From IMG/VR virus record IMGVR_UViG_3300042391_000951, positions 1 through 47,467 of that record: a DNA stretch of 47,467 nucleotides. The stretch is one strand, 5' to 3'. Below, in pieces: positions 2,800 through 43,974 of the stretch. The notes below the pieces were generated by a model. It was given only the letters and a program-made list of their open reading frames with translations, did no database searches and was not told the origin of the DNA. This DNA comes from a virus. A program made the position numbers and the translations under genes. How positions within the stretch are numbered: position 1 is the first letter of the stretch; each line of letters starts with the position of its first letter.

Positions 2800-2800
2800 C

Positions 2801-4684: not shown

Positions 4685-4692
4685 AAATACCC

Positions 4693-4700
4693 CATAAATA
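4693..4700 (+). promoter_or_regulatory. T4-type late promoter-like element (CATAAATA)
   Basis: Matches 7 of 8 bases of the T4 late consensus TATAAATA and lies in the only gap before gp25. If the usual spacing applies (last A at about -6), transcription would begin at about 4706, inside the gp25 start codon at 4705. It would thus give either a leaderless gp25 message or serve mainly the downstream genes. Confidence 0.45.
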
Positions 4701-4704
4701 CTGT

Positions 4705-5082
4705 ATGGCAAAGACATTTATTGGTTTTAATACTCAAGGACAATACAAAAAATTTACCTTGACTGGGTTTGAGTTAATCAAACGCGATCTTCTCAACGCC
4801 TTTAACATACGGCAAGGGCAGTTGCCTGGCCGCCCAGAATACGGCACTATTCTCTGGGATTACTTGTTTGAAAATCAACTTGAAGAATTACAAAACAGTA
4901 TCACTCGTGAAGTGCAACGTGTGGCTGGCGGCGATCCTCGAATCTACATCAGTGACGTACAAACTTTCCCCCAGGAAAATGGCATTTTGATACAGGTTGA
5001 ACTTGCTGTAATACCGTCTACTGATGCCGAGCGACTAAGTATTTTTTTCAACAACACAACTCGCACAGCCTCCTACGTATAA
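4705..5082 (+). CDS. gp25: Baseplate wedge protein gp25 (GPW/gp25 family)
   Basis: 125 residues, the normal size for gp25 (T4 gp25 is 132 aa). The protein is part of the inner baseplate wedge ring and starts sheath polymerisation. The family core is visible: a helix followed by GRPEYGTILWDYLFENQ (about residues 46-62), a central helix LQNSITREVQRVAGGDPRI, and a terminal strand pair (VQTFPQENGILIQVELAVIP). The order gp5-like, gp25, gp6 is the usual baseplate order in marine T4-like phages. No clear ribosome binding site precedes ATG 4705, but the N-terminal sequence MAKTFIGFNTQ fits the family and no later Met is a better start. Confidence 0.9.
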   Translation: MAKTFIGFNTQGQYKKFTLTGFELIKRDLLNAFNIRQGQLPGRPEYGTILWDYLFENQLEELQNSITREVQRVAGGDPRIYISDVQTFPQENGILIQVELAVIPSTDAERLSIFFNNTTRTASYV

Positions 5083-5101
5083 CCTAGCCGTTTTTGATGC
5101 C

Positions 5102-5109
5102 GATAAATA
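5102..5109 (+). promoter_or_regulatory. T4-type late promoter-like element (GATAAATA)
   Basis: Seven of eight bases match TATAAATA. With standard spacing, transcription would start near 5115, leaving a 14-base leader that contains the AGAGG ribosome binding site (5116-5120) nine bases before the gp6 ATG at 5129. The geometry is good, so this is a likely functional late promoter for gp6 and the giant gene. Confidence 0.6.
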
Positions 5110-5128
5110 AAACATAGAGGCTCTAACA

Positions 5129-8100
5129 ATGGCAACCACAACAAGACAAACAGCAATATTTGGTGTAGAAGACTGGAAACAGATCTACCAAACCTATCGC
5201 GAAGCAGACTTCCAAAGCTACGACTTTGAAACCCTGCGCAAAAGTTTTGTAGATTATCTGCGTTTGTACTACCCAGAAACTTTCAATGATTATATTGAAA
5301 GTTCAGAATTCATTGCGTTGTTAGACGTCATTGCTTTTATGGGCCAGGCCATGGCCTTCCGCACAGATCTAAACACTCGCGAAAACTACCTGGACACTGC
5401 TGAACGTAGAGACTCAGTGATCAAATTGGCTAATCTTGTAAGCTACACAGCCAAGCGTAACACAGCCGCCCAGGGTCTGCTCAAAGTTCTCAATGTTACC
5501 ACAACAGAAAACGTGGTTGATTATCAAGGCGTAAATTTGGCCAACGTCACTGTGGATTGGGCTGACCCCACAAATCCTGACTGGCAAGAACAGTTTACAG
5601 CAATTATCAATGCTTCACTGTTGGATACTCAGCGCATTGGTCGTCCAGGCAATCGTCAAACCATGCTGGGTGTTAGAACTGACGAGTATGGTATTAACTT
5701 GGTGCCTGGCTATTTGCCCATTGTTCCGTACACGGCCACAGTTGACGGCATTTCAATGCCGTTTGAGGCCATGAGCTCAACCAGTGTTGGTCGAGATTAT
5801 TTGTATGAGCCCAGTCCCACTGTTGGCAACCCATTTAATATTTTGTTTCGCAATGATCAGTTGGGGTTCCAAAGCGCCAACACTGGTTATTTCTTTATGT
5901 TCAAGCAAGGTGTTTTGCAAAATCAAGATTTTAACCTAGCTGAAAAAATTTCTAATCGCACAGTAAACGTCAATATTGAAGGCATCAACAACGAAGATCA
6001 TTGGTTGTTTCAGCTTGACAACGTGGGCAATGTGTCACGTGAGTGGAAATATACTGAAAACATTTATAGTGCGGCAGCTGAACAAATTGGCACAGACCTA
6101 AGTCCCATTTATACAATTACCAGTAGAACCAACGATCAAATCACCATGGTGTTTGGCGATGGTGTGTTCTCAGAAATTCCAGTGGGCACATTCCGTGCCT
6201 ATGTTCGTGCGTCAAACGGTTTGCAGTACATTATCAACCCTGAAGAAATGCAAGCTGTGACCATTCCCATCAGCTACATCAGTCGTAGCGGTAACTTGCA
6301 AACCATCACCTTCACTTGCGGCATTACTCGTCCAGTAAGCAACAGTCAAGCACGTGAAAGCGTTGAAGCAATCAAGCAACGTGCTCCTGCTCGCTACTAC
6401 ACACAAAACCGCATGGTCAACGGTGAAGACTACAACCTCTTCCCATACACACAGTACAATTCAATTGTAAAATCAAAAGCATTGAACCGTTCGTCAATTG
6501 GTACCAGTCGTTATCTGGACTTGATTGACAACACTGGCAAATATTCAAGTATCAACACCTTTGGCAGTGATGGCGGATTGTGGGAACAAAATATTCTTCC
6601 TACTATCCTGTTCTCTTGGACCAGTCGAAATGAAATTGCCGACGTTGTGACCAATCAGGTGCAACCGCAACTGGCTGACTCTACCATGCGCCAGTTTTAT
6701 TATGGTAACTTTCCAAGGGTCACAGAAACAAACTTACCTTATGCCACCACCTGGTTAACAGGAACCACCTGGCAACAAAGCACTACTTTGGCCAACGAGA
6801 CCACCGGCTATTTTGTCAATGGTTCAGGCGTACCAGTACCTGTAGGCAACACCACAACCACAATGTTGAAATATGCAGCCGTGGGAGCATTGATTAAATT
6901 TGTTGCACCCACTGGTTATTACTTTGATGGCAATAACAAACTGCAACAGGGCACTGCAACTCGAGCTGACGAAACCACAGAAATTTGGGCTAGCCCACTG
7001 CAAGTTGTTGGCGATGGCTACAACAACGGAATTGGCAATCTGAGTTCAGGTGCCGGACCAATCACAATCAACAACTTTGTGCCTACGGGCGCCATTGTTG
7101 ACACACTGATTCCGTTGTTTGTAACTGATTTGCCCTTGGACCTTGAACAGGCCATGGCTGAACAAATCTTGTTGTATCGCAACTTTGGTATTGGCTATGA
7201 CAGTAACGGCAGTTTACCAATTACAAATTATACCCCAGGCTCCTGGTACTTGATTACCAGCACTAACCTGGCACAAGATGCTACTTGGAGTCAACAGTAC
7301 GCTGGTAACACTTCGGGCGCTAACCTTGACGCCAGCTGGCTGGTACAGTTTACAACAGAAAATCAAAACTATACCATTAGTTTTCGCGGCCTGGCCTATT
7401 ACTTTGGATCAGTGTTACAAACACGATTCTTCTTTTATGGTGACCAACAAGTATATGACAGCCGTACTGGCACAGTGATCAAGGACTTTATCAATGTGTT
7501 GGCAGTGAACACACAACCTGACAGCACTGCTACCTTGCCTGGAAACATCTATATGACCATCACAGGACAACCGGTAGAAAGCGACGGCTATGTGGATGAC
7601 TTCCAGGTGCTAGTAGGCTACCGAGACAGTGACAATGACGGTGTTCCAGACAATCCAGATTTCTTTGACGAAATTGTTGCACCCACAGTTGATGCCAATC
7701 AAAAGTTGATATTTTTGCAAAAGACCATAGACTTTGATAACCTGCAACGTTTTCTACTGGTTGAGCCAGGCGTTGTCAACAGCGACTATCCCACCTATGA
7801 TGATTTAGAATTGGTAAAACTAGAGTGGAGCCCAGGACAGGTATTTTATGCCTACGCTGACGAAGATTTTTATCAACTGTCTGTTGGTACCACTGGTGTG
7901 CGCACCTTGATTGATGTCAGCAACGAATGGATTGCCAGAACTGGCCGCCAGGCTCTGTACTATCAGTATCGCCACAACTCACCACTAACCAATAGAATTG
8001 ATCCAGGCACAACCAACATCATTGACTTGTATGTTGTGACCCTGGCCTATTATACAGCATACCAAAACTGGATTCGTGACACAACTGGCACTGTGACTGA

Positions 8101-8587
8101 GCCTGCACAGCCCACAATTGATGAGCTTTCAACAGCGTATCAAGGACTGAATGATTATAAAATGTTGAGCGATAATATTATTTTAAATTCCGTAACATTT
8201 AAACCGTTGTTTGGAGAAAAGGCTGCAAGTAGTTTACGAGCCACAATCAAAGTTATTCGTGCTTCAAATTCCACTGCCAGCACCAGCGAAATAAAAAGCG
8301 CAGTTGTGGCAGCCATGAACGATTATTTCTCAATTGACAAATGGAACTTTGGAGACACTTTCTACTTCAGTGAACTTGCGGCTTACTTGCATCGTACACT
8401 GGGATCAATTATTAGCTCAGTGGTACTAGTACCACTGGACACACAAAAATACTTTGGAGACCTTTACGAAATTCGTTCAGAACCCAATGAAATTTTTGCC
8501 AACGGTGCCACAATCAACAACATTGATGTGATTGAAGCATTGACCAGTACCAACCTGCGTACTGCACCAGGTAGCGGAGTAATTTAA
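5129..8587 (+). CDS. gp6: Baseplate wedge protein gp6-like (baseplate J family), enlarged
   Basis: 1152 residues. Gp6 dimers join the six wedges into the baseplate ring. The first ~120 residues carry the recognisable gp6 start in marine T4-like phages (FETLRKSFVDYLRLYYPETFNDY, SSEFIALLDVIAFMGQAMAFR, LDTAERRDSVIKLANLVSYT). Baseplate-J-like segments follow: ITMVFGDGVFSEIPVGTFRAYVR near residue 340, and ARESVEAIKQRAPARYYTQNRMVNGEDYN near 415. The C-terminal part ends with VTFKPLFGEKAASSLRATIKVI and a short helical domain. T4 gp6 is 660 aa, so about 500 extra residues are present, mainly in the middle (about 500-950), where Tyr/Thr-rich beta-type sequence resembles the neighbouring giant protein. 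The stop TAA overlaps the next ATG by one base (8587). Confidence 0.85.
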   Translation: MATTTRQTAIFGVEDWKQIYQTYREADFQSYDFETLRKSFVDYLRLYYPETFNDYIESSEFIALLDVIAFMGQAMAFRTDLNTRENYLDTAERRDSVIKLANLVSYTAKRNTAAQGLLKVLNVTTTENVVDYQGVNLANVTVDWADPTNPDWQEQFTAIINASLLDTQRIGRPGNRQTMLGVRTDEYGINLVPGYLPIVPYTATVDGISMPFEAMSSTSVGRDYLYEPSPTVGNPFNILFRNDQLGFQSANTGYFFMFKQGVLQNQDFNLAEKISNRTVNVNIEGINNEDHWLFQLDNVGNVSREWKYTENIYSAAAEQIGTDLSPIYTITSRTNDQITMVFGDGVFSEIPVGTFRAYVRASNGLQYIINPEEMQAVTIPISYISRSGNLQTITFTCGITRPVSNSQARESVEAIKQRAPARYYTQNRMVNGEDYNLFPYTQYNSIVKSKALNRSSIGTSRYLDLIDNTGKYSSINTFGSDGGLWEQNILPTILFSWTSRNEIADVVTNQVQPQLADSTMRQFYYGNFPRVTETNLPYATTWLTGTTWQQSTTLANETTGYFVNGSGVPVPVGNTTTTMLKYAAVGALIKFVAPTGYYFDGNNKLQQGTATRADETTEIWASPLQVVGDGYNNGIGNLSSGAGPITINNFVPTGAIVDTLIPLFVTDLPLDLEQAMAEQILLYRNFGIGYDSNGSLPITNYTPGSWYLITSTNLAQDATWSQQYAGNTSGANLDASWLVQFTTENQNYTISFRGLAYYFGSVLQTRFFFYGDQQVYDSRTGTVIKDFINVLAVNTQPDSTATLPGNIYMTITGQPVESDGYVDDFQVLVGYRDSDNDGVPDNPDFFDEIVAPTVDANQKLIFLQKTIDFDNLQRFLLVEPGVVNSDYPTYDDLELVKLEWSPGQVFYAYADEDFYQLSVGTTGVRTLIDVSNEWIARTGRQALYYQYRHNSPLTNRIDPGTTNIIDLYVVTLAYYTAYQNWIRDTTGTVTEPAQPTIDELSTAYQGLNDYKMLSDNIILNSVTFKPLFGEKAASSLRATIKVIRASNSTASTSEIKSAVVAAMNDYFSIDKWNFGDTFYFSELAAYLHRTLGSIISSVVLVPLDTQKYFGDLYEIRSEPNEIFANGATINNIDVIEALTSTNLRTAPGSGVI

Positions 8588-11500
8588 TGGCAACAGTTCG
8601 TAGTGTTGATTTTCTTCCTGAAATTTTTCAGACTGATGCCAACAAGCAATTTTTAAGAGCCACTCTTGATCAGTTGATTCAAGAGCCCAAGTTTAAAAAG
8701 ACTCAAGGCTTTATTGGGCGCACAGTGGGCCCAGGTGTAAATCCCAACGACAAATATGTAGTTGAACCCACAGATACTCGAGCCAACTATCAACTTGAGC
8801 CTGGCGTTATTAGTTTGGTTCCAGACACTGACACTATTCAAAATGCAATCACATATCCAGGCTTGAATGATGCTATTGGATTCCAGGGTGGCAACAACGG
8901 CAGACCAGATCGCTTGTACGAAAGTGAATATTACAGCTGGGATCCGTTTGTTGACTTTGACTCATTTGTAAACTTCAGTCAGTATTTTTGGTTGCCCAAC
9001 GGACCCGAAGTGGTTGACGTAGCGGCAACAGGCGTAGCAACATCAGACAATTTTATAGTAGATCGCGAAAATGGTGTGTATACTTTCTCAGGCGTGGCTG
9101 GAGAAAATCCTATTATTGAATTGGTGCGTGGCGGCAGTTACACATTCCAAGTTGCGCAAAACAACAAAGAAACTGTGAACTATCGTGTGCGCAACCAAGG
9201 CATTAGTTCATATGTGATTGACTTCCAGAACAACCCAACACTGACTTTGTCTCGTGGTAACACCTATGTGTTTAACCTGACACTAAACGGCGACTTCCCA
9301 TTCTGGATTAAAACTGCGCCAGTCACTGGCCTTGGCAGTCCCTACAACAGCGGTGTTAGCCGCAATGGTGCAGTGACTGGACTTGTGACATTTACTGTGC
9401 CACAAGACGCACCAGATACTTTGTACTACATCAGTCAAACACAAAGCAACATGCAAGGCGAGTTGAATATTGTGGACGGCGTACCGGGTACAGGTCCAGG
9501 ATTTTGGATTCAAGCCGCCCCTGGTGTGAGTGGTCTCATACCCACAACACCCAATATCAGCAGTCGCGATGTGTTTGGTGTAACTGGCAACGGTGAAGAT
9601 TTGGGCACTATTGTTTTCAACGTGCCCAGTAAAACAGCGCAGAGTTTTTACTACGATCTCAACCCCATTACTTCAATTGACTTGATAACTGGACTAAAGT
9701 TTGATGAAATCAACAACCAACCAGTTGATCAATTTATTTTACAATACGGCGGCATTGACGGCATCACAAACTTGAATGGCCGCACACTGATATTCACTAA
9801 TCCTCTTACAGATGACACTGATGGCGGATGGCTACGCACAACGTTGTTTGATCCTTTAGAGCCTGGCGCTGCCAACAATGGCCTAGCAGGCAGTTTTGAC
9901 TCACTACCATATGACCAAACTCTGATAATTGAACCTGAACAACGCTATCAGCGTTGGCAAATTTCTTATGTCAACGTTGCTGGTACAAATTATCTTTACT
10001 GTTCCAAGATTGCTGACATTGCGCCCTTGGACAAGTTCAACATTGGGTACGGCAATACGTACAGTAATACTCAATGGTACAAAGACGCTACTGGCACATT
10101 CAAACAAGTTCCATTGTTGACAGCAGTACAAGATACCTTGTACTATCAAGACGGAACTGATCCTGAAATCTTTGGCACTATCAAGTTGCTTGAGCAAACT
10201 GGTGCGTCTACTTTGTTTGTGGATCAAATTTTGGGACGTAAAACCTACACCAGTCCCAACGGAGTTGAATTTAGCAATGGTCTCAAAGTTAGATTTACAA
10301 GCGACGTAAGTCCAGCCAGTTATGGATCAGGCACTACTTCAATTACCTATACCGAAACTGAATCAGGCACAAATTATATCACGTCTAACAGCAGTAATAA
10401 TTTGTATGTAGGGGAACAAATTGTATTCAATAGCCCAAGCCTTGGAGGCCTGTTGCCTGGTCAAACTTATTATGTGCGAAGCATAGCGGCCAGCGGGTTA
10501 AAATTTACAGTCAGCACCGTGGACGGCGGCCCAGCAGTTTCTTTATTGACTGGAACTGGCACGGCCTTTGCAACCTCAATCAGCAATGTAGAATATTATG
10601 TTAGCGGTGTTGGCACCAGCATTGAACTGTTGCCAGTAAGAGATTTTACCACACCAGAAACCTATGTGGTTGACGCATTTGACAGTACCATTGCCACAGA
10701 ACCTGACCAACTGGACTATCTCACAATTAGCCGAGCCAGCAAAGACCTCAACGCATGGACACGTAGCAACCGCTGGTTCCACATTGATGTGATCAATGCC
10801 ACAGCTGACTACAACAACTCTGTGGCTGTGTTGGACAACAACTATCGAGCCAAACGCCCAGTTATTCAATTCCGTCCAGGTATTAGACTCTGGAACATGG
10901 GCACCAGCGGCAAAGCGCCAGTTGATATCATTGACTTTGATGAAACTGATGCCTTTAGTAATATTGAAGGATCAACCAGTTACAGCACAGATGGTTACAC
11001 TTTTGTAGAAGGCACACGAGTAATCTTTGCCGCAGACACAGATGCAGACGTGCGAGACAAAATTTACATTGTGAGTTTTGTAACCCCTGACACTGTTGCT
11101 CCACTAATAGCACAACCTATTATTGTGTTGACCCTGGCTGCTGATGGTTTGATCAGTCTTGATCAAAGCACTGTCTGCTTGTATGGCAACAGCTTGCAGG
11201 GTCTAACCTTTTGGTATGATGGCACTGAGTGGACTCAAGCACAGCAAAAAACTGGTGTACAGCAAGCCCCATTGTTCAACGTGTATGACCCCCAAAGCGT
11301 AAGTTTTGGCGACGGAACCAAGTATCAGTCTACAACTTTTGCAGGCAGCAAACTATTCAGTTATGCTGTGGGCGACAGTTCTATATTGGATCCAGTACTG
11401 CAATTCCCCCTGCAATACTTGAACATCAACAACGTTGGTGACATTGTGTTTGTCAACAACTTGTACAATGACACATTCTTGTATGTGGTTGACAACGTTT

Positions 11501-14500
11501 CTGTAACCAGTGACATCAGCTCAGGCTCAGTGCGAGAATATACCACACGAGAAACTTATCAAAAGTTGTTGGGTTGGCAAACTGCCATCTCAGACAGCAA
11601 AGTTTACCAACAGTTTAAATTTAGTTACAGTGGCACCACACTAAAACTTGACGTGTCTGTGTTGAATCAAGTAACTTCCGCTGTGCCTGTGATCAAAGTC
11701 TATTTTGGTAGTGAGTTCCAAGATCCAGGAACATACACTTATATTACCACTAGTAACAGTACCACAATCACTTTGAATGGTACCTATGTGCTTGGCGACA
11801 TCATTGAAGTGTTGGCTCTAAGCAATCAAACCAGTCAAGCGGCGTTTTATCAGGTGCCCAATAATCTTGAATCAAATCCGCTTAATGCCAACAGCCCCAA
11901 TTTTACCTTGGGTACTATTCGCCAACACTATCAGAGCATTTGCGAAAACTTGCTGACCTTGAGAGGTCCGGTAAACGGCGCCAACAACACTAGGGACCTT
12001 GGTGATATCATACCTTATGGTCTTACAATTTTACAACAAAGCTCACCACTGACTCTGGCAGGTTATTTCATGCGCAGTCAAGACTACAATATATTTGCGG
12101 CGTTGCAATACAACAGCCAAGAGTATTTGAAGTTCAAAGCACAGATGTTAGACTCAGTAATCAGTCAAAACATTGGGTTCAATTCAACCGCACAGATTCT
12201 TGACACTGCAATTCAAAATATCACGTTGGGCAAGCTGGATAGTCAGCCATTCTATTGGGGTGACATGATCCCACAAGGGGTCACAACCTACAGCAACAGC
12301 TACACTGTGAGTTTTATTACTCGTCCCACATTTGACACTGTTCAAGTGTATAACTTTGAATCAGCAAATTATCTTGGCCTTTGTGTATACATCAACGATG
12401 TAATTCTGGTACGTGGAGTAGACTATGATGTTGCCACAGATGGCCCACGTCTTACTATCACCCGCACATTGAATTTGGGTGACATTGTGTTGATCAACGA
12501 GTATTCAGAAACTTATGGTGCATTTGTTCCCAACACACCTACCAAAATGGGATTGTACCCAGCCTACATTCCTGTTATCACTGATCAAGTAACCAGTACT
12601 GGAACCGAAACTGTTATTATCGGGCACGATGGCAGTGTTACCAAAGCGTTTGGCGACCTGCGTGACGAAGTGCTGTTGGAGTTTGAAAAACGAGTTTACA
12701 GCAATCTCAAGTTGGATGGAAATCCTGTACCAATAACAATTGAAGAAGTATTGCCCGGTGAGTTCCGCGAAACTGGATTTACATTTGAAGAAATCAATAC
12801 TATTTTTGCTCAAGACCTATTGAGCTACTGTGGCTGGAACAAACTGGATTACAAAACACAAAACTTCTCGGCCAATAACGAGTTCACGTGGAATTACAGC
12901 ACTGCTACCAACAAGCTCAATAATGAAAATTTATTGGGTGCCTGGCGCGGTATCTATCGCTATTTCTATGACACACAACAGCCAAGTCTGAGTCCTTGGG
13001 AAATGTTGGGATTGGCAGAGAAACCACTGTGGTGGGAAGGTCGCTATGGCACAGCGCCATACACATCAGACAACTTGGTTTTATGGGATGACCTAGAAGC
13101 CGGCTATGTTGCTGATCCTGTGGCCCCATTCTATCGTCCTGAGTATGCTCGTCCAGGCTTGACCAAGGTAATTCCAGTTGATGATCAAGGCAACTTGGTC
13201 AGCCCATTTGTCAGTGTGGTCAGCAACTATCAAGAAAATCAATTCCAGAAGTCGTGGGCCATTGGTGATGGCGGCCCAGTTGAAGCGTCATGGTGGAACA
13301 GCAGTGCATATCCTTTCTCAGTAATGCATGTGCTTGCAGTCACACGCCCAGCCAAGTTCTTTGCACTGTTTGCTGACCGCGATCGATACAAGTATAACGA
13401 AGATTATCAACAATATCTGTACGACAATCGTTACCGCCTGGATGCCAATGGAGTTCAAGTGTATGGCAATGGTGTCAGCAAAGCCAGTTTCATGGACTGG
13501 ATTGTGGACTTTAACCGTCAGACTGGTATTAATTCTACTGATGCATTACAAGCAGACCTCAAGAGTCTTGACGTAAGACTGTGCTATCGCATGGCCAGCT
13601 TTAGTGACAAACAGTATATTAAACTTTACACTGAAAAGTCCAGTCCCAACTCTACCAATACTGCGTTGCAGATTCCTGATGAGAGTTACAATGTATTGCT
13701 GTATAAGAATCAGCCGTTTGATCGAGTAATTTACAGCTCAGTTGCAGTGCAAAAAGTTGCAGGCGGATATGCAGTATTTGGTTATGGTAACAGCCAGCCT
13801 TACTTCAACATCCTGGAAAGCAAGGCAGTGGGCAAAATGCAAACAATTACCACGTCAGGCATTACTATCAAAGTGCCAACATTTTACACTGATAACGTTG
13901 TACAAGTTCCATACGGATTTATCTTTACCAACGCAACCAGTGTAGCAGACTTTTTGTTAAGCTACGGACAATTTTTACAGCGTCAAGGACTGGCATTTAC
14001 CAACATTGCCAATGGTTATGTGCTGGACTGGGGCAGAATGGTCAACGAATTCCTGTACTGGACTGCACAAGGCTGGGGCGAAGATGCTATCATTAATTTG
14101 AATCCCTTGGCAGCAGGATTGGATATCACACGACCACAAGCTATTGTGGACAGCGTCAACGCTGAAACTACTGAGAATTTAATACTGGATCAAAACTCAC
14201 GCGAAATATCCAGCCGCAATCTCAATGTTGTGCGCCTGGGCAACTACTTTTCTATCCAGCCCCTGAGCACACAAAGTCTCAGCTACATTGATCTGCGCTA
14301 CACCAACTATGAACACATGATTGTGTTGGACAACCAAAGTGTGTTTGGTGATTTGATTTATGATCCAATCACTGGCGCTAGACAAAGTCGTTTGAATTTG
14401 ATTGCGGCCACTAGCGATGAATGGAACGGCAGTGTTGACGCTCCGGGCTTTATTTTAAATCAAGACAACGTTGAAGAGTGGACTGGCCTGCGCACTTACA

Positions 14501-17500
14501 CCAAAGGCGAAATTGTCAAATACAAGAACGTGTACTGGTCAGCATTGACCATTGTACAACCAACAGACAAGTTTGATTTTAATGTTTGGACACAGAGTGA
14601 CTTTACTCAAACTGAAATAGGTCTGTTGCCAAACTTGGCCAACAAAGCAAATCAATTGGCCAACAGCTATGATATCAATCAAGCCAACCTTGAAGGCGAC
14701 AATGACTTGCTCAGTTATGGCTTGACTGGATTTAGACCACGACAGTACATGTCTGCTTTGAATCTTGATGATGTAAGCCAGCTCAATGTGTATAGACAGT
14801 TCATTGGGGACAAAGGTTCTGTATTGTCAGCTGAATTGTTTAAATCAGCTAACCTGGGCAAAGAGTCTGCTGACTACGACATTTTTGAAAACTGGGCAGT
14901 TCAACGTGCTGTGTATGGCGCCAATGCCAACCGCAGTTTCTTTGAATTGCGTTTGAATCGTGCGCTACTAAATCCAAACCCCAGTCTGATACAAGTGGTG
15001 ATTCCACAACAACAAAGTTCAGCTGACCAACAAATTTTACTGAGTGCGGTGTGGAGACAAAGCTACAAACTCACAAGCCCTGATATTCTGCCCACCACCA
15101 TAGAATTGCCAACCGACATTGGTTTGCCCACAGCTGGGTATGTAAATCTTGATGATGCAGATATCACAGTGTTTGACATCAACAATCCAGCCAGTCTCAA
15201 TGCCAACATTGACAATATTGAAGTTGGTACCAGTATCTGGGTGGCCAAAGTCAACAGCTATGACTGGAACATCTATCGAGCACAGGCAGTGCCAGGAGTA
15301 ATTCAGCACGTATGTGACAACTTGAATGGCACCAGCCGAGTAATTTTTAGTCAAAATCACGGACTTGTTGCGGGTAACAAACTGATTATCAAATTCTTTG
15401 ACACTGAAATCAACGGTGTTTATCAAGTGCTGTCAGTGTCTAATCTAACCACAGTAAACATTAGCTTTAGATTCACTGGTAGTCGCACAGTGGCCAACGG
15501 ATCTGGCCTGGGATATACTTTGCAAACCATGAGGGTATCACAAGCCAGTGACGTTATTAACTTGCCTTACGCAAATAACATTTTGCCAGGTGCTAAAGTC
15601 TGGGTTGATGACAACGGTCAAGGTTTGTGGGAAGTTCTTGAAAAGAACGAAGTATTTTCAGATGTCACAAGCCTAAGTCCAATACTGCTAGACGCAGGCG
15701 AACAGTATGGCTCAAGTGTGGCACAGGCACAGAATAGATTGGCTGCCTTGGTTGGTAGTCCACGTTACGGTTTTGGCAATGTGTCAGATCCCGAGCTTGC
15801 TCAAGGTGCATTGTACCTATACGTTAAAGCCTACACTGATCAATATCAACCAGTGACTCCGTTGGGAAATACTGACGCTGTATTCAAACTTGATGCTACT
15901 GGCATTCGTGGTTATGGCAATGCTGTGGACTTTGGGAATCAAGCCTGGGCTATTGCTGGAGCCAGCAACAGTACTGACCAACTCAGCATGTCAATCATTG
16001 CCGCAAGTGGCGATGGGTCAACAGTCACAATCACATTCCCTACAATGACCAGTGCACCTTTTAGCATTGGCGATTCAGTAGTGATTACTGGGGTTAATCC
16101 AGACAGTTACAACGGCACTTGGACACTGACCAACTGCACTTCTAGCCAGTTGCAATTTGCTAGTACCAACACCAACATTTACTTGTCGGGCGGCAAAATC
16201 ACACAAAACAGCAACTACAGCACACAAGTTGGTACTGCCTGTGTTATCTATCGAGATCCTGCACTGGGTCAGCCTGGCGCAGTGCCTTTCGCACAGTGGC
16301 AATTGTTGACACCACCTGCTGTAACCAGTCCATTTGGAGCACCTGGCACTAGAGAATTTGGCTACAGCGTGGCCATGAGTCTTGATGAACGTTGGGCTTA
16401 TGTAGGATCACCTGCCACAAACGAAGTTCATGCTTATGGACGAGTTGATTATGAAAATCAATTTGCTCGAGCACGTGGAGATGGTGTAACTAAAACCTAC
16501 AACATTGCTGATCGAATTCAAATCAATGCTTCAACACAGCTCAAGATCACAATTGATGGAACTATACAAACCCTAGGAACCAACTATACTGTTGCACCAT
16601 CCCTTGGCTCAGTGACATTTACAATTGCCCCGCCTGCTGACACGCTGATAGATATTCAACGAATTTTCACGCAACAGCTTGACGCACAAAACTATTATGA
16701 TGTGATTCAAAGCGCAACCTCAGGTTCAGGCACTGGCGCCAAGTTTACTATTGTGCGTGTGCGTGGCCAAGTGGGCCAAACTCCTGGCGGCGAAGGCAGC
16801 GTGGGTACTACCAGTTTGGGTTCAGGATATGCAGTAAATGACACTATTGATATTGCGGCATCAACATTTGGTGGCGGCTCAAGTCCAGCAAACGACATTG
16901 TGCTTACAGTGTTGACTGTGGGCACTGGCGGTGCGTTGGGATTATTCTCAATTGCTTACACAGCCCCCACATTGACCAGCACATTCTCATTAAACGAGTA
17001 TTTCTTTACAGCAACAACAATCAACAGTTTCAGCGTCACAGTTGATGATGCGTTACAAAGACCAAATCTTGACTACACATTCAACACCACAACTGACGAT
17101 TTACGATTTGAAAATGTTCCGCCTGCTGGTTCTGTGATTATTGTCAACGCTCAGGGCTACTTTGAATATGTGTCCACGATTGACACTTCTGACGTACCTG
17201 GTGGATTGGTAGCAGGTGATAGATTTGGCGAAAGCATTGCTATAACCACAGACGGGCGACAGATCATGGTTGGTGCTCCTGATAGTGGTATCAATGGTGA
17301 AACTGAGTCTGGTGCAGTGTACATTTTTGATCGAAACGTACAGAAGTTTATCTACAATTCAGATAATTCCACAATTTCTGGTTATGAATTTACCTTGCTT
17401 GGTACCCCAGTTGGTCCTATCAGTGTGATAGTAAACAATGTGTTCTTGCAAAATGAATACACAACACTTCCAAGTGCTCCTAACACGTTTGAGTGGAACG

Positions 17501-20500
17501 GTGCAAACACAGTAACAATTAATGCAGAGCTACAAACTGGTGACATAGTTGAAATTGAAACTAATCAATTTAGATTTGTGCAACGAGTAGATCAAGAAAC
17601 TGCGGCTGAGTTTTCCAACTTTGGTCAAGCTGTTGACATTTGCCCGTACAACTGTAGTCTCTATGTTGGTGAACCCAACAGCAGTGTACAAGTATTCAAG
17701 GGTGGTATTGTTGAACGCAATGTAAACCAAAGCCGTATCTATGGTACGACCACTGCTACAACTGCTAACCCAACATTAGCGGCGGCCAGCACAATTCGTG
17801 TCAATGACATGGATGTATTGGTACCCGGCAGCTGGTCTAGTGCCAGCACTTATCCAGTTAACACTGTGGTAACCAATACTGTTGGCAGTACAACAACTAT
17901 CTATCTAAGTTTGCAAGCAGTTCCTGCACTGACTTTGATTACCAACACTTCGTACTGGCAAGTAATTACATCAACCACGGTACTTGCCAGCGTAAATGTG
18001 CGAGCACTTGCCGCGCAGATCAATGTGTCTGTGCCAAACGTTAGTGCCACAGTTGATGTCAACGGATACATGACTATTGCAGTCAAGAACAATGATGCGG
18101 CAGCTGAATTTAACAAAGTACAAGTTGCTCCTGGGTCAGGTTCAGGAACATCATTCAATAATCTAGGGTTTGAAACATTTGTTTGGACACAAAATATTTT
18201 AAGCCCGTACCCTGTTGATTATGCACAGTTTGGCGGCAGCGTCAGCATTGATGATTCAGCAGTGAATCTTGTGGTAGGTGCGCCCAATGGTACCTTGTAT
18301 CTAGAAACTGTGTTTGACGATGGTACAACATTCTTTGATTCTGGCAGTACCATATTCTTTACAATTATTGTACAGAGTGGTGCCGCATACACGTTTGATT
18401 ATTTGCCAAGTTCTAGTTTGGTAGTGACTAACCCAGGCAAATTTGTATTTGGACAACAGGTCAGCAACAGTGAAGTACAATCGTTAGACTCATTTGGTGT
18501 GGCAGTAAATTACACTGGTGGTGTGCTCATGGTGGGCGCACCCAAGAACGATGTTGGTGATTCAACTTCAGCGTTTGGTGCTGTATTTGTGTTTGAAAAC
18601 CCCAATCGTTTACCTGCTTGGACAATACAAACAATAGAACAACCAGTAGTGGATGTGCGGTTGTTGAACTCGGTATTCTTGTATGATAGAATTTCCAGTG
18701 CAGTTACTGAACACCTGGATTGGCTCAACCCGTTACAAGGCAAAATACTAGGCGCCGCAAGACAAAACATTGACTATATTGGTGCTGTAGATCCTGCCAG
18801 TTACAATGTTGGTCCTCTCAACGTTAGAGGCACAACTTGGGTTGGTGGCCACCTGGGAGAAATTTGGTGGGACACTAGTTCTGTAAGATTTATTGACCCC
18901 AATCAAGACGACATTACCTATGCGGCTCGACGTTGGAGCCAAGTGTTCCCTGGCAGCGAAATTGATGTCTATCAATGGATTGTAAGTTCAGTACCACCGG
19001 CGCAATACATTGGCGAAGGCGTGATTAAAGATACGCTGAGCTACGTTGTAAATTCTCGCTTGACCAAAGATGGCACCATTGCTACCGATTACTATTTCTG
19101 GGTTCGTGGTATTACTGTGACTGCAACAGCACTGGGCAAAACATTGCCAGCATCTACTGTTGCCAACTATATTGAAAACCCAAGAGCCAGTGGAATACCT
19201 TATGTTGCACCAATCAATGCCAGCACAATTGCTATCTATAATTCGGGTGATTACATTGAAGCTCAAGATACAATTATTCACATTGAATTTGATCGTGAAC
19301 TTACCAATGATAATGTACACGTTGAATATGAACTGATCCCACAAGATCGTGCTGATGGCTTCTTGAGTGGCAATCTTTACCGCAAACTGCAAGACAGTTT
19401 CTGCGGTGTTGACAGTTTTGGTAACCTTGTACCTGACCCTAATCTCAGCATAGCTGAACGTTATGGCGTACAGTTCCGTCCACGTCAATCTATGTTTGTG
19501 GATCGATTTGCGGCTCTTAAAAACTACCTGAATCGATGCAATACTGTGTTGGCACAGTATACCATTGCTGAAAGCCGCAGTTTTAATTTGCTTAACAGTG
19601 CAGAGCCAGAACCAGGATCTAGTACTGGCTTGTGGAACTTGCGTGTGGCCAACTTGGAAATCTTGGGATTCCAGAATATCTATACAGTGCCCTTGGGTTA
19701 TCGATATCTTGTGGTCACTGACAGTAGCAACCGTGGTTTGTGGACAATCTACACTGTAGAAAACAGTGACCAAATCCCAGGTGAACGAGCGTTGATTCTA
19801 ACACGAGTTCAGGGTTACAATACCCCAGACTACTGGAGTTACATTGATTGGTATCGCCCTGGGTACAATTCCAGCACCAAGGTCATTACGGAAGTTCCAG
19901 TATTCAGCTCATTGACCACACTGGAAGTTGCTGTTGGCAGCAGTGTCAAAGTCACAGCCAATGCTCAAGGCAAGTGGGAAATTTACCTGCGCACTGATCT
20001 TGGTTATGAACGTGTGGGCTTGCAAGATGGGACCATAGAGTTTTCTGCAGAGCTTCATGATTATGCTCTGGGACGTTTTGGTTTTGACGTTGAAGTTTTT
20101 GACGCTCAATACTATGACCAAGAGCCTGTGATTGAAACACGCAAAGTTATCCAGGCCATCAACGAAGAATTGTTTGTTGACGACCTGGCAATTCAACGCA
20201 ACAAAGCCCTGGTGCTGATGTTTAACTATGTGTTGAGTGAATTCTCAGCGCCAGAATGGTTGGTCAAGACCAGTCTGATTGACGTTGATCATAGAATTCG
20301 TGATTTGGTTCCGTACCAAAACTACGTGCGTGATAACCAAGAATTTGTGTCAGACTATATTCAAGAAGTCAAGCCTTATCACGTGAGTGTGCGCGAGTTC
20401 AACTTGAAATACACTGGCTTTGATGAATTCTTTGGCGACATGAGTGACTTTGATGTGCCAGCATACTATGATGTTTCTTTAGAAGTTCCGCAGTATGTGA

Positions 20501-23500
20501 GCCCAATTTTGTTACCATACTATCACAGTGACAGCTTTAATGCGGCGTTTAACACCAAGAGCGACGTTCCTGCCAACAGTACAGTATGGACATCATGGCC
20601 ATGGAGTCAATGGTATAACAATTATTTGTTAACACTTGACGACATTAGAATGATTGAATTTGGTGTTGGGTATACTGAAGCACCTCAAGTGGTTATCACT
20701 GGCTCGGCTACTGTGCCTGCCACGGCTGTGGCAGTGATCAACAGCGTAGGACAAGTGGTAGCAATCAACATTGTTGACGCAGGCTCTGGCTATAATGCAA
20801 CGCCAACTGTGACATTTAACGGTGGTAACGGTTCAGGCGCCAAGGCCTATCCTATCATGAACTATGATGCGGTAACTGACACACCCACTGGTCTAGTGCG
20901 TAGCTTTAAAACTGTGATCAAGTATGACCGATTCCAGTATGTCAGCAGTGTGCTTACATGGAGTCCTGATGGCACCTATCAAGACGGTACCTTGGTTCGT
21001 TACGAAGATCGTGTGTGGCAAGCGTCAAGCCCAGATTCAACCGCAGTGGTTGGACCTGATTTTAATCTAGAAGACTGGACCCCAGTCAACGCTGGAACCT
21101 ACAACAACGGCCTGGGACTAACTGGTGTTGATCGTACCATGGGCTTGTATGTTGCAGGGGTGAACAACCCCGGGCTTGAATTGCCTTTGTTGATTGATGG
21201 CGTTGACTATCCGGGTGTGCAAGTGTATGGTGATTACTTCCTTGGCAATCCCACATTTGTAGACGCAGAATACACAAGCGAATTTACAGACGCTACCTTG
21301 GGTGATCGATTCAGCGACATCAACGCAGACGGTGGCCAGTTTATTGGTCCTTACGAAGGACATGCACCAGAAGAACTGGTAAACGGATCAGAATACGACA
21401 CCTTGGATTTCCGAGTGTACACACGCCCAGGCTCAGATTGGAGCTTTGATGGACATGGATTCCAACTGGGAAGTCGTCGATTCATCTTTACTCCTGCGTT
21501 GACCAGCACATTTAGTTGGGCTGACGTGGTTGATCGTCCTGTGGAAATTGTTGTTAGCAATCAAACACAAGGCGTTGATTTAAGAAAAAATATTGACTAC
21601 AGTGTTGACTACAACGAACAAACAATCACCATCAACACTGGTGTAGCCGATGGTGAAATTATCAATATCACAGTTTACGAATTGGGTGGCGGTAGCCAAC
21701 TGTTTAGAAACAACTACAACGGTGGTGATGTTGGAGACAGCGTTGTAATTCCAGTAAACAGTGTAGAAATAACTGACATTGCAGTGTTCTCAAATGGCGA
21801 GTTAACCACTGGCATTAGTTGGGAACCCTATGTTGACAGTGTGACCTGGGACATTGTTGATCCCTACAGCAAATTTGACACAGTGAAATCCACAGCGGCA
21901 TTTGCCGGATCAGTGACTGGAACAACATTGACCGTTACCGCAGTGACTTCAGGAACAGTGATAGCTGGACAATTCATCACAGGTGCTTATGTAGAATCCA
22001 ACACATTTGTTGTTGATCAAATTGAGCCATTGTTGTTTGGTGAAACCCTGGGCGGCATAGGACGATACAATGTAACAGTATCTCAAACTGGATTCCCAGG
22101 CAACATTGTGGGTGCTAGTTTCTATCGTGCGCTTCAAAATGTGCCAGCTGGTACCAATATTACTGAAACTTTGTATTGGTTTAAATTTGTACCAACACTA
22201 CAAACTCTTGTGAATTTTGGAACAACCTATACTGGCGCTGAAGGCTTGGCCTTGGTGGCATTTAGTCTTACCACTGTGAGTGCTGGGAACTTTGCTGTTG
22301 GCAACACCTACACTATTGCGTCACTTGGCACAACAAATTTCACAGCAATTGGCGCGGCATCAAACACCGTGGGCACACAATTTACAGCTACTGGTGTTGG
22401 CACAGGCTCTGGCACAGCAACATATGATTACAGTTGGAGTACCCCGCAGGTACAATATTTTGTGGTTGATAACAACACAGTGTCAACCAAGACTTTTATC
22501 TTGACCAACAGTTTGCAAGGGTCAAACAACGCCAACATGATTGTCACAAGAAATGGCTTGCGACTACGCCCATACGAAGGAATTGAGTGGTTTGGTGACG
22601 GATCCAGTACCGAGTTTGGATTGCCGCAACGTGGTGGTTTTGGCCAAGACATTATTGATGCACCCAACGATATATTTGTTTGGGTTGATAATGTATTGCA
22701 ACCACAGAGTTTTGGTGCACAATCAGGCACCTACAGTGTCAGCAATTATACTGGTTCCAACACTCCTGGTCGTCAGGTGGTGTTTAACGATCCTCCGCCA
22801 GCAGGTGTAAGAATCTTGATTTCGGTTGATACCCAAGCTGACTATACCATAATAAGCAATCAATTACAAATCATTACCTCAGTTAACGTAGGCGACAGCA
22901 TTGCAGTTACCACATGGAACGATACTGCGCAACAGGCTCCGTTGACTTTGGTATTCCAAGGTCCAATTGTTACTGGTGTAACTGTTGCTGAAGGTTACGA
23001 CAGCACAGTATTTGATGCGGCAGCTATTTCAGAAACGCCAGGATCATTTGACTTCTCAACAGGTACTGCGGTGGCTAACAATGACTTCTGGCTTGAACGT
23101 GCTGGGGTTGAGGCCAGCAGACTTTGGGTAACACTGGATGGTCAACGACTGTTTGAAGGTCAAGACTTTGTGGTTGCCGGTGAGTATCTTGAGCTCAGTA
23201 GCGGCGCTATTGGCACCTTACAAATTCTAGCAGTTACTGAATTTACCAGCAGCCTAGTTCCAGAAGCCATGGCATTCCGCATATTCCAAGACATGCGCGG
23301 CGTGCAAGCCACCTATAGAATCACTGCGGCCACTAGTACATTTGTGGCGCAACCTATTGGTCAAACTGACAGTGTGATCTACGTAGACGACGTAAGAAAA
23401 CTCAGTGAACCAGCTCTTGACGTTGGTATTTTTGGTGTGGTTACAATCAACGGTGAACGCATCATGTACCGCACTGTAAATTATGACAACAATTCTATCA

Positions 23501-23994
23501 CTGGACTGTTGCGTGGAACTGCTGGTACTGCGGCTGCTGATCATGACGTGGGCACAGACGTATACGATACTGGACGCGGAAACTTGTTGCCAGAGCAGTA
23601 TCAAGACTATGTGGTCAAAGACAACAGCATGGGCGATGGTACAACCACTGTGTTCTACGCTCCAAGTATTGTGTTTGAAGATTTCTTGGACTCCAGCAGT
23701 GAGCGTCCTGCAATTGAAGTTTATGTGGGCGGCACCCGTCAATACGCTTATAGTGATACTAGCGCAACTTCAAAGTATCGATATTTTGTAACTGACTTTG
23801 ACCCACTGGCGGTGGACTTTATTGTGGATAACAATGTAATACCTCCACTCACAGCCCCAGCAGCCGGCGAAGAAGTAACGATCTTGGTACGTCAAGGAAT
23901 CAGCTGGTATCAGCCAGGACTAACCACTGCTAGCGACGGTATTGCCCTGCAAGATACAGAAACGTTCCAGGCAAGGTTCTTGCGTGGTCTATAA
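8587..23994 (+). CDS. Giant multidomain tail/baseplate structural protein (5135 aa)
   Basis: A single open frame of 15.4 kb directly after gp6, where marine T4-like phages carry a very large virion protein (sometimes labelled VrlC; recalled, not checked). Visible parts in order: N-terminal wedge-like region (1-180); two cupredoxin-like modules (about 181-380); many copies of a beta module of the type (V)x(V/I)DgxxQxxxxDYT (for example near residues 1280, 2660, 2820, 2945); a CBM5/12-like aromatic module (about 1965-2003); seven FG-GAP-like blades (2371-3339) with inserted domains, one of them aromatic (3083-3125); another CBM5/12-like module (4125-4164); a widespread phage module TYTIASLGTTNFTAIG (4573 on); a segment GVVTINGERIMYR near 4955; and the C-terminus ALQDTETFQARFLRGL. 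The composition suits an extended, mostly beta fibre or baseplate arm that contacts the host surface. No enzyme active site was recognised. No frameshift or internal stop occurs. Confidence 0.85.
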   Translation: MATVRSVDFLPEIFQTDANKQFLRATLDQLIQEPKFKKTQGFIGRTVGPGVNPNDKYVVEPTDTRANYQLEPGVISLVPDTDTIQNAITYPGLNDAIGFQGGNNGRPDRLYESEYYSWDPFVDFDSFVNFSQYFWLPNGPEVVDVAATGVATSDNFIVDRENGVYTFSGVAGENPIIELVRGGSYTFQVAQNNKETVNYRVRNQGISSYVIDFQNNPTLTLSRGNTYVFNLTLNGDFPFWIKTAPVTGLGSPYNSGVSRNGAVTGLVTFTVPQDAPDTLYYISQTQSNMQGELNIVDGVPGTGPGFWIQAAPGVSGLIPTTPNISSRDVFGVTGNGEDLGTIVFNVPSKTAQSFYYDLNPITSIDLITGLKFDEINNQPVDQFILQYGGIDGITNLNGRTLIFTNPLTDDTDGGWLRTTLFDPLEPGAANNGLAGSFDSLPYDQTLIIEPEQRYQRWQISYVNVAGTNYLYCSKIADIAPLDKFNIGYGNTYSNTQWYKDATGTFKQVPLLTAVQDTLYYQDGTDPEIFGTIKLLEQTGASTLFVDQILGRKTYTSPNGVEFSNGLKVRFTSDVSPASYGSGTTSITYTETESGTNYITSNSSNNLYVGEQIVFNSPSLGGLLPGQTYYVRSIAASGLKFTVSTVDGGPAVSLLTGTGTAFATSISNVEYYVSGVGTSIELLPVRDFTTPETYVVDAFDSTIATEPDQLDYLTISRASKDLNAWTRSNRWFHIDVINATADYNNSVAVLDNNYRAKRPVIQFRPGIRLWNMGTSGKAPVDIIDFDETDAFSNIEGSTSYSTDGYTFVEGTRVIFAADTDADVRDKIYIVSFVTPDTVAPLIAQPIIVLTLAADGLISLDQSTVCLYGNSLQGLTFWYDGTEWTQAQQKTGVQQAPLFNVYDPQSVSFGDGTKYQSTTFAGSKLFSYAVGDSSILDPVLQFPLQYLNINNVGDIVFVNNLYNDTFLYVVDNVSVTSDISSGSVREYTTRETYQKLLGWQTAISDSKVYQQFKFSYSGTTLKLDVSVLNQVTSAVPVIKVYFGSEFQDPGTYTYITTSNSTTITLNGTYVLGDIIEVLALSNQTSQAAFYQVPNNLESNPLNANSPNFTLGTIRQHYQSICENLLTLRGPVNGANNTRDLGDIIPYGLTILQQSSPLTLAGYFMRSQDYNIFAALQYNSQEYLKFKAQMLDSVISQNIGFNSTAQILDTAIQNITLGKLDSQPFYWGDMIPQGVTTYSNSYTVSFITRPTFDTVQVYNFESANYLGLCVYINDVILVRGVDYDVATDGPRLTITRTLNLGDIVLINEYSETYGAFVPNTPTKMGLYPAYIPVITDQVTSTGTETVIIGHDGSVTKAFGDLRDEVLLEFEKRVYSNLKLDGNPVPITIEEVLPGEFRETGFTFEEINTIFAQDLLSYCGWNKLDYKTQNFSANNEFTWNYSTATNKLNNENLLGAWRGIYRYFYDTQQPSLSPWEMLGLAEKPLWWEGRYGTAPYTSDNLVLWDDLEAGYVADPVAPFYRPEYARPGLTKVIPVDDQGNLVSPFVSVVSNYQENQFQKSWAIGDGGPVEASWWNSSAYPFSVMHVLAVTRPAKFFALFADRDRYKYNEDYQQYLYDNRYRLDANGVQVYGNGVSKASFMDWIVDFNRQTGINSTDALQADLKSLDVRLCYRMASFSDKQYIKLYTEKSSPNSTNTALQIPDESYNVLLYKNQPFDRVIYSSVAVQKVAGGYAVFGYGNSQPYFNILESKAVGKMQTITTSGITIKVPTFYTDNVVQVPYGFIFTNATSVADFLLSYGQFLQRQGLAFTNIANGYVLDWGRMVNEFLYWTAQGWGEDAIINLNPLAAGLDITRPQAIVDSVNAETTENLILDQNSREISSRNLNVVRLGNYFSIQPLSTQSLSYIDLRYTNYEHMIVLDNQSVFGDLIYDPITGARQSRLNLIAATSDEWNGSVDAPGFILNQDNVEEWTGLRTYTKGEIVKYKNVYWSALTIVQPTDKFDFNVWTQSDFTQTEIGLLPNLANKANQLANSYDINQANLEGDNDLLSYGLTGFRPRQYMSALNLDDVSQLNVYRQFIGDKGSVLSAELFKSANLGKESADYDIFENWAVQRAVYGANANRSFFELRLNRALLNPNPSLIQVVIPQQQSSADQQILLSAVWRQSYKLTSPDILPTTIELPTDIGLPTAGYVNLDDADITVFDINNPASLNANIDNIEVGTSIWVAKVNSYDWNIYRAQAVPGVIQHVCDNLNGTSRVIFSQNHGLVAGNKLIIKFFDTEINGVYQVLSVSNLTTVNISFRFTGSRTVANGSGLGYTLQTMRVSQASDVINLPYANNILPGAKVWVDDNGQGLWEVLEKNEVFSDVTSLSPILLDAGEQYGSSVAQAQNRLAALVGSPRYGFGNVSDPELAQGALYLYVKAYTDQYQPVTPLGNTDAVFKLDATGIRGYGNAVDFGNQAWAIAGASNSTDQLSMSIIAASGDGSTVTITFPTMTSAPFSIGDSVVITGVNPDSYNGTWTLTNCTSSQLQFASTNTNIYLSGGKITQNSNYSTQVGTACVIYRDPALGQPGAVPFAQWQLLTPPAVTSPFGAPGTREFGYSVAMSLDERWAYVGSPATNEVHAYGRVDYENQFARARGDGVTKTYNIADRIQINASTQLKITIDGTIQTLGTNYTVAPSLGSVTFTIAPPADTLIDIQRIFTQQLDAQNYYDVIQSATSGSGTGAKFTIVRVRGQVGQTPGGEGSVGTTSLGSGYAVNDTIDIAASTFGGGSSPANDIVLTVLTVGTGGALGLFSIAYTAPTLTSTFSLNEYFFTATTINSFSVTVDDALQRPNLDYTFNTTTDDLRFENVPPAGSVIIVNAQGYFEYVSTIDTSDVPGGLVAGDRFGESIAITTDGRQIMVGAPDSGINGETESGAVYIFDRNVQKFIYNSDNSTISGYEFTLLGTPVGPISVIVNNVFLQNEYTTLPSAPNTFEWNGANTVTINAELQTGDIVEIETNQFRFVQRVDQETAAEFSNFGQAVDICPYNCSLYVGEPNSSVQVFKGGIVERNVNQSRIYGTTTATTANPTLAAASTIRVNDMDVLVPGSWSSASTYPVNTVVTNTVGSTTTIYLSLQAVPALTLITNTSYWQVITSTTVLASVNVRALAAQINVSVPNVSATVDVNGYMTIAVKNNDAAAEFNKVQVAPGSGSGTSFNNLGFETFVWTQNILSPYPVDYAQFGGSVSIDDSAVNLVVGAPNGTLYLETVFDDGTTFFDSGSTIFFTIIVQSGAAYTFDYLPSSSLVVTNPGKFVFGQQVSNSEVQSLDSFGVAVNYTGGVLMVGAPKNDVGDSTSAFGAVFVFENPNRLPAWTIQTIEQPVVDVRLLNSVFLYDRISSAVTEHLDWLNPLQGKILGAARQNIDYIGAVDPASYNVGPLNVRGTTWVGGHLGEIWWDTSSVRFIDPNQDDITYAARRWSQVFPGSEIDVYQWIVSSVPPAQYIGEGVIKDTLSYVVNSRLTKDGTIATDYYFWVRGITVTATALGKTLPASTVANYIENPRASGIPYVAPINASTIAIYNSGDYIEAQDTIIHIEFDRELTNDNVHVEYELIPQDRADGFLSGNLYRKLQDSFCGVDSFGNLVPDPNLSIAERYGVQFRPRQSMFVDRFAALKNYLNRCNTVLAQYTIAESRSFNLLNSAEPEPGSSTGLWNLRVANLEILGFQNIYTVPLGYRYLVVTDSSNRGLWTIYTVENSDQIPGERALILTRVQGYNTPDYWSYIDWYRPGYNSSTKVITEVPVFSSLTTLEVAVGSSVKVTANAQGKWEIYLRTDLGYERVGLQDGTIEFSAELHDYALGRFGFDVEVFDAQYYDQEPVIETRKVIQAINEELFVDDLAIQRNKALVLMFNYVLSEFSAPEWLVKTSLIDVDHRIRDLVPYQNYVRDNQEFVSDYIQEVKPYHVSVREFNLKYTGFDEFFGDMSDFDVPAYYDVSLEVPQYVSPILLPYYHSDSFNAAFNTKSDVPANSTVWTSWPWSQWYNNYLLTLDDIRMIEFGVGYTEAPQVVITGSATVPATAVAVINSVGQVVAINIVDAGSGYNATPTVTFNGGNGSGAKAYPIMNYDAVTDTPTGLVRSFKTVIKYDRFQYVSSVLTWSPDGTYQDGTLVRYEDRVWQASSPDSTAVVGPDFNLEDWTPVNAGTYNNGLGLTGVDRTMGLYVAGVNNPGLELPLLIDGVDYPGVQVYGDYFLGNPTFVDAEYTSEFTDATLGDRFSDINADGGQFIGPYEGHAPEELVNGSEYDTLDFRVYTRPGSDWSFDGHGFQLGSRRFIFTPALTSTFSWADVVDRPVEIVVSNQTQGVDLRKNIDYSVDYNEQTITINTGVADGEIINITVYELGGGSQLFRNNYNGGDVGDSVVIPVNSVEITDIAVFSNGELTTGISWEPYVDSVTWDIVDPYSKFDTVKSTAAFAGSVTGTTLTVTAVTSGTVIAGQFITGAYVESNTFVVDQIEPLLFGETLGGIGRYNVTVSQTGFPGNIVGASFYRALQNVPAGTNITETLYWFKFVPTLQTLVNFGTTYTGAEGLALVAFSLTTVSAGNFAVGNTYTIASLGTTNFTAIGAASNTVGTQFTATGVGTGSGTATYDYSWSTPQVQYFVVDNNTVSTKTFILTNSLQGSNNANMIVTRNGLRLRPYEGIEWFGDGSSTEFGLPQRGGFGQDIIDAPNDIFVWVDNVLQPQSFGAQSGTYSVSNYTGSNTPGRQVVFNDPPPAGVRILISVDTQADYTIISNQLQIITSVNVGDSIAVTTWNDTAQQAPLTLVFQGPIVTGVTVAEGYDSTVFDAAAISETPGSFDFSTGTAVANNDFWLERAGVEASRLWVTLDGQRLFEGQDFVVAGEYLELSSGAIGTLQILAVTEFTSSLVPEAMAFRIFQDMRGVQATYRITAATSTFVAQPIGQTDSVIYVDDVRKLSEPALDVGIFGVVTINGERIMYRTVNYDNNSITGLLRGTAGTAAADHDVGTDVYDTGRGNLLPEQYQDYVVKDNSMGDGTTTVFYAPSIVFEDFLDSSSERPAIEVYVGGTRQYAYSDTSATSKYRYFVTDFDPLAVDFIVDNNVIPPLTAPAAGEEVTILVRQGISWYQPGLTTASDGIALQDTETFQARFLRGL
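15697..18603 (+). repeat. Seven FG-GAP-like blades inside the giant tail protein
   Basis: Seven degenerate copies of the pattern (F/Y)Gx(S/A)V...(L/I/Y)xVG(A/S)P...V(Y/F) are spread over residues about 2371-3339. The clearest are EFGYSVAMSLDERWAYVGSP (2585), RFGESIAITTDGRQIMVGAP (2879), NFGQAVDICPYNCSLYVGEP (3011), QFGGSVSIDDSAVNLVVGAP (3214) and SFGVAVNYTGGVLMVGAP (3303); two weaker ones start near 2371 and 2439. FG-GAP repeats form the seven-bladed propeller of integrin alpha chains. The copy number of seven fits one closed propeller, with beta modules inserted between blades. Confidence 0.65.
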
Positions 23995-43885: not shown

Positions 43886-43974
43886 GAAAAATTTGGGACA
43901 GAATCACACTAGAGATTCGCTATCGTAAAAAACTAAAAGAACTGCGCAAAAGAGATCCGTTTATCTACAAATGA
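43873..43974 (+). CDS. 33-residue basic aromatic-rich small protein
   Basis: ATG 43873 to TGA 43974. The peptide begins MHWLRKIWDRITLEIRY, continues with RKKLKELRKR and ends DPFIYK. AAGGA at 43861-43865 lies 7 bases before the ATG, the start overlaps the preceding gene by 13 bases and the stop forms ATGA with the carbamoyltransferase gene, so it is well embedded in the operon. Eleven Lys/Arg and five aromatic residues (W3, W8, Y17, F30, Y32) make a basic, probably amphipathic helix with an aromatic C-terminus. Similar very short proteins with 'RYRKKLKELRKRDPF' occur in T4-like marine phages as far as I recall. It could bind membrane, RNA or a partner enzyme, or be a substrate of the radical SAM enzymes. 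No function is assigned. Confidence 0.7.
   Translation: MHWLRKIWDRITLEIRYRKKLKELRKRDPFIYK

Follow-up and report, generated by a model that had tools for sequence, protein, structure and literature searches.

Propellers in integrins and in phage tails

The propeller of the integrin alpha chain (FG-GAP/Cage, PF01839; alphaV, alphaIIb and alpha5) has seven blades, each with an FG...GxP motif. In some of these blades the A-B loop holds a Ca2+-binding DxDxDG sequence, and alpha chains can carry one inserted I domain (PMC3192720). Phage tails also contain decorated propellers. In the nozzle protein of podophage SU10, a propeller of seven blades carries a fibre dock loop on blade 1 and has nozzle domains inserted between blades 2 and 3 (PMC9509320). 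This nozzle lines the DNA channel of a short-tailed phage and, like T7 gp12, forms a hexameric ring next to the adaptor; no relation to FG-GAP repeats has been shown for it. The receptor-binding protein of the staphylococcal phages phi11 and 80alpha is built on a five-bladed propeller platform (PMC7048315). It is a baseplate protein, trimeric and the product of an unrelated gene. Finally, stand-alone FG-GAP proteins occur in uncultured phages and in Atu_ph07, a jumbo phage that belongs to the same broad group as the phages treated here. The Atu_ph07 "hemagglutinin" gp320 (L199, positions 4019-5200, minus strand) has FG-GAP_2 repeats (E=5e-18) in only 393 amino acids, without large inserts, and has a homologue in Sinorhizobium phage Phosso (34% identical). 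Its gene lies in the CDS 284-329 range, which is reported to be rich in virion proteins (PMC6102473).

The propeller described here is encoded in a viral DNA stretch of 47,467 nucleotides (the window; IMG/VR record IMGVR_UViG_3300042391_000951, positions 1 to 47,467), and all features of the window given below lie on the plus strand. It is predicted to have the integrin-like fold, yet it differs from an integrin in matching PF14312 and not PF01839, in its lack of DxDxDG calcium loops, in having several inserts rather than one, and in being part of a phage virion protein. In comparison with SU10, it is inserted in a wedge-position protein of a phage of the contractile-tail type, and its gene context is that of a baseplate wedge, not of a nozzle. 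The sequence-only reading had supposed that such a decorated propeller in a phage tail was undescribed. With regard to the general kind this is too strong, as the SU10 nozzle is already published. However, the literature searched gave no account of a myophage baseplate protein that contains an FG-GAP propeller; the block is real and, as a variant of a known fold, probably undescribed.

The carrier protein

The open reading frame at 8587-23994 encodes a giant protein of 5,135 amino acids. An identical protein of 5135 residues is encoded in a longer viral record (L001, IMGVR_UViG_3300042363_000729, 122889 bases). On both sides of the propeller the protein matches phrog_10938, annotated as virion structural protein (E=1.5e-221 and 4.6e-62), and these core blocks are collinear with giants of four cultured jumbo phages: PA5oct gp355 (3857 amino acids), Atu_ph07 gp180 (4449), 121Q 582 (3323) and SCTP-2 140 (3807). 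The gene stands directly 3' of a gp6-like baseplate wedge gene (5129-8587; phrog_10646, E=3.9e-275), which in turn follows a gp25-like wedge gene (4705-5082; phrog_43, E=4e-10). The position directly after gp6 is the same in PA5oct and Atu_ph07, and in T4 it is occupied by gp7. Compared by hhalign, T4 gp7 shows no detectable sequence homology (probabilities of 0.3 and 0.2 per cent), and T4 gp6, 8, 9 and 10 gave no match either; the case for a wedge role is thus built on gene order and on the relatives.

The PA5oct record marks the giant homologue as detected in virions by mass spectrometry. In virions of phAPEC6 a hypothetical protein of 382 kDa, gp245, was found, numbered next to the baseplate wedge protein gp244 (PMC7247149); its size and numbering suggest that it is another homologue. 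The gp25-gp6-giant order, together with the PA5oct virion data, points to the baseplate as the location of the protein, and the phage-tail setting that had been proposed from the sequence is supported by the phrog matches and the gene context. Two other regions of the protein gave matches of their own. Residues 185-297 (9139-9477) match the gp9-type fibre-connector family phrog_677 (E=6e-18), and near the C-terminal part, outside the propeller, there is a weak, sub-threshold match to CBM_5_12 (residues ~4124-4146; 20956-21024).

Seven blades and one predicted propeller

The stretch 15697-18603, in which an integrin-like seven-bladed propeller had been proposed, corresponds to residues 2371-3339, and its seven blade motifs are real. 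The FG/YG...GxP motifs start at residues 2374, 2443, 2591, 2880, 3012, 3215 and 3303; neighbouring motifs are 69, 148, 289, 132, 203 and 88 residues apart, in keeping with the range of about 70 to about 290 given earlier. The propeller as a whole is slightly longer, covering residues ~2366-3352 with its inserts (15682-18642). Pfam FG-GAP_2 (PF14312) matches it with E=7.2e-14 and 52 bits (cut-off 23), while a scan of the window with PF01839, the integrin alpha FG-GAP family, gave no match. In the propeller-bearing records tested, PF14312 is found in the giant frame only. Profiles of single blades recover other blades, from blade 3 to blade 4 at 3e-6 and from blade 6 to blade 4 at 7e-6, although such links exist for some pairs and not for all.

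Blade 1 (EQYGSSV..LVGSP..GALYLYV) is encoded at 15700-15861. Blade 2 is divided into strands A-B (RGYGNAVDFGNQAWAIAGAS; 15907-15972) and strands C-D (GTACVIYRD...WQLLTPP; 16231-16320), and is followed by blade 3 (REFGYSVAMSLDERWAYVGSPATNEVHAYG; 16351-16458) and by blade 4 (DRFGESIAITTDGRQIMVGAPD..GAVYIFDR; 17218-17352), which has the best FG-GAP_2 match. After blade 5 (SNFGQAVDICPYNCSLYVGEP; 17614-17721) comes blade 6, again in two parts, strands A-B (AQFGGSVSIDDSAVNLVVGAP; 18223-18297) and strands C-D (SGAAYTFDYLPSS...GKFVFGQQV; 18370-18462). Blade 7 (DSFGVAVNYTGGVLMVGAP..GAVFVFENP..WTIQ; 18487-18642) leads back to the core, as judged from alignment with propeller-free relatives. These assignments are based on the motifs and on conservation in 97 homologues. 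Relatives were collected from IMG/VR with the window propeller (14 records), with an alignment (the best 80 of 198) and with the core (the best 80 of 590). In the 97 homologues the pair of F, Y or W with Gly is kept at all seven blade positions in 92-100% of sequences, and the six spacings vary (45-133, 49-186, 52-409, 105-223, 146-269 and 85-114 residues). The blades therefore appear as the constant element and the inserts as optional ones.

Structure prediction, the check proposed in the sequence-only reading, was run with AlphaFold2 on residues 2300-3370 with 37 sequences, and its scores favour a single closed propeller (mean pLDDT 80.3, pTM 0.81). Low confidence is mainly found at the insert in blade 2, at one loop of blade 6 and at the ends. 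Among solved structures this model is best matched by integrin alphaV and alpha5 chains (E ~1e-7), with a target TM of 0.54 over 1028 columns for alpha5 4wk2_A. As an independent check, the most compact relative, L157 (695 amino acids, 62 sequences), was modelled and gave pLDDT 82.8 and pTM 0.85. Its model matches 503 solved chains at E<=1e-3, the first being the alpha5 propeller 4wk2_A (E=4.3e-10, target TM 0.58), and it reaches a target TM of 0.77 with CIAO1, a seven-bladed WD40 protein. Searches of PDB sequences, with the single segment and with a profile, returned weak matches only, including integrin alpha (E 0.3-0.8).

It could be imagined that the seven FG-GAP-like hairpins lie apart, in small beta domains that share no axis, since the blade spacing reaches 289 residues and the blade 2 insert and some short stretches are modelled with low confidence. 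However, both models have as their top matches seven-bladed propellers over nearly the whole length, and in some relatives the spacing of blades 1-3 is near-canonical, which makes such an arrangement very improbable. Ring closure was read from pTM and from the TM-scores to known seven-bladed propellers. The models thus support one closed, integrin-like propeller of seven blades into which other domains are inserted.

The acidic loops had been suggested to bind calcium. This suggestion is not supported: the blades of the window contain no DxDxDG-type loop, TTDGRQI and LDERWAYVG are short turns, the A-B loop is 5-8 residues long in the family, and the sole recurrent DxDxDG match in relatives falls in the hairpin before the propeller. 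The A-B turn of blade 5 contains a CxxxC sequence (residues 3019-3023; 17641-17655) that is invariant in a 37-row alignment and absent from the L166/L173-type branch. It is a possible metal or disulphide site.

The inserted domains

That other domains interrupt the propeller, as proposed earlier, is corroborated by the models of the window and of L157 and by the varying spacings. The insert in blade 2 (I2; 86 amino acids, 15973-16230) is nearly private to the lineage of the window, with an occupancy of 0.08 in 96 relatives. It is modelled with pLDDT below 50 (segment residues 165-246). A similar module is present in the N-terminus of the L145 protein, and a search of I2 against cultured phages gave no match. 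The largest insert, I3 (~244 amino acids; 16459-17190), resembles in its first part the N-terminal domain of the T7 tail fibre (PF03906, E=6.2e-5, 23.2 bits, just below the cut-off of 25.2), and is missing in L157 and L173. By contrast, I4, a beta module of ~78 amino acids (17353-17586), and I5 (~160 amino acids; 17722-18201) are retained by nearly all relatives. I5 includes an aromatic module (residues ~3080-3135) that has no Pfam match and that recurs in the C-terminal parts of relatives (E=9e-8). Glycan binding by this module is only a guess, and within the propeller Pfam gave no confident match to a carbohydrate-binding module.

Several of the insert modules are found again in N-terminal and C-terminal regions of these giant proteins, and controls with shuffled modules gave zero matches. 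Judged from their sequences, the inserts resemble tail modules that can be interchanged. At every distance, identity is highest in the core, lower in the blades and lowest in the inserts (0.78, 0.69 and 0.55 for pairs with a core identity of 0.75-0.85). Faster evolution of the inserts is as expected if they are exposed at the surface.

Insertion of the propeller as a unit

The propeller block follows a core hairpin (KVWVDDNGQGLWEVLEK, residues 2337-2355; 15595-15651) that was located by alignment with L156 and PA5oct and is present in propeller-free relatives. The conserved core blocks, at window residues 2236 and 3345, are separated by 1109 amino acids in the window, compared with 139 in L156, 117 in 121Q, 314 in PA5oct and 401 in SCTP-2, the last four being free of FG-GAP repeats. 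L156, whose core is ~47% identical to that of the window, constitutes a natural empty site: its hairpin, KVWIDSNSNGKYDTYEK, runs directly into the segment that follows the propeller. The block is a single-unit, optional insertion after the core hairpin. The absence of the propeller from L156 may also be due to misassembly.

In the cultured phages PA5oct gp355, 121Q 582, Atu_ph07 gp180 and SCTP-2 140 have the same gene position and a collinear core, and lack the FG-GAP propeller at the insertion site. At this site Atu_ph07 gp180 (L016) has instead 1528 residues without FG-GAP (residues ~1658-3186), with a weak tail-sheath-like match; the site seems to be open to other large inserts. On a maximum-likelihood tree of the core, midpoint-rooted and with the cultured phages on long branches, two changes are needed. 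As L014 lies outside L156, the uncultured clade is taken to have gained the propeller once and L156 to have lost it. The propeller does not seem to be essential to the core, as its loss in L156 seems to be tolerated. With tblastn, neither the window propeller nor a compact relative gave a match among cultured phages, and the one pattern scanned in bacterial and archaeal genomes likewise gave none, and hence no cellular donor.

Possible roles in the baseplate

On the basis of these results, it is possible to speculate about the role of the propeller. In uncultured jumbo phages, a closed FG-GAP_2 propeller inserted after the core hairpin of a giant baseplate protein in wedge position would most likely serve as a rigid hub on the periphery of the baseplate. 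Its loops would display beta modules of a repertoire that also supplies the rest of the protein. Through lateral contacts, these modules would dock tail fibres or adjacent proteins of the baseplate, touch the host surface, or do both. The likeness of I3 to the T7 fibre domain, together with the fibre dock of SU10, hints by analogy at docking. The evolution rate of the inserts fits exposure and does not separate fibre docking from receptor binding; a role in docking or host contact is what we infer for the propeller. To this reading as a whole, from the single-unit insertion to the peripheral hub with its displayed modules, we attach about even chances.

Alternatively, the propeller itself might bind a glycan or a protein on the host surface, as an accessory receptor-binding platform whose inserts tune specificity. 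Adhesion is a frequent function of propellers in this superfamily, for example in integrins, PVL and tachylectin (PMC8023676), the phi11/80alpha platform offers a baseplate precedent (PMC7048315), and the inserts change more rapidly than the core and differ in presence between relatives. They are, however, moderately variable and not hypervariable, with an identity that falls smoothly with that of the core, and neither a ligand-binding motif nor a calcium loop nor a confident carbohydrate-binding module was recognised, so that we regard direct receptor binding as rather improbable. It is also conceivable that the block is a purely structural spacer, widening or bracing a large jumbo-phage baseplate, with no specific partner and with inserts as neutral decoration. 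The dispensability of the block across relatives and the free gain and loss of inserts would suit such a spacer, but the blades are intact and constrained in 97 relatives, which suggests a conserved role, and I4 and I5 are kept in almost all of them; a mere spacer is therefore unlikely. A wider scenario would go further: an integrin-type adhesive propeller may have been captured once by a phage baseplate and made into a plug-in platform exchanging fibre-type modules, diversifying docking or host contacts while the wedge core stays untouched. This is conceivable, though we consider it doubtful.

With this protein, the contractile-tail baseplate would join the known settings of decorated seven-bladed propellers. 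L157 and L156, plus the cultured jumbo phages, constitute a natural pair with and without the block in which its role can be tested. The protein also illustrates how tail proteins of jumbo phages grow, with modules being inserted and exchanged in the loops of a stable fold. Further along the same contig, at 34409-45461, lies a run of radical-SAM/SPASM genes (34409-35818, 36751-38244, 38216-39478, 39475-40689 and 41557-42849), followed by a carbamoyltransferase gene (43971-45461; PF02543 and PF16861).
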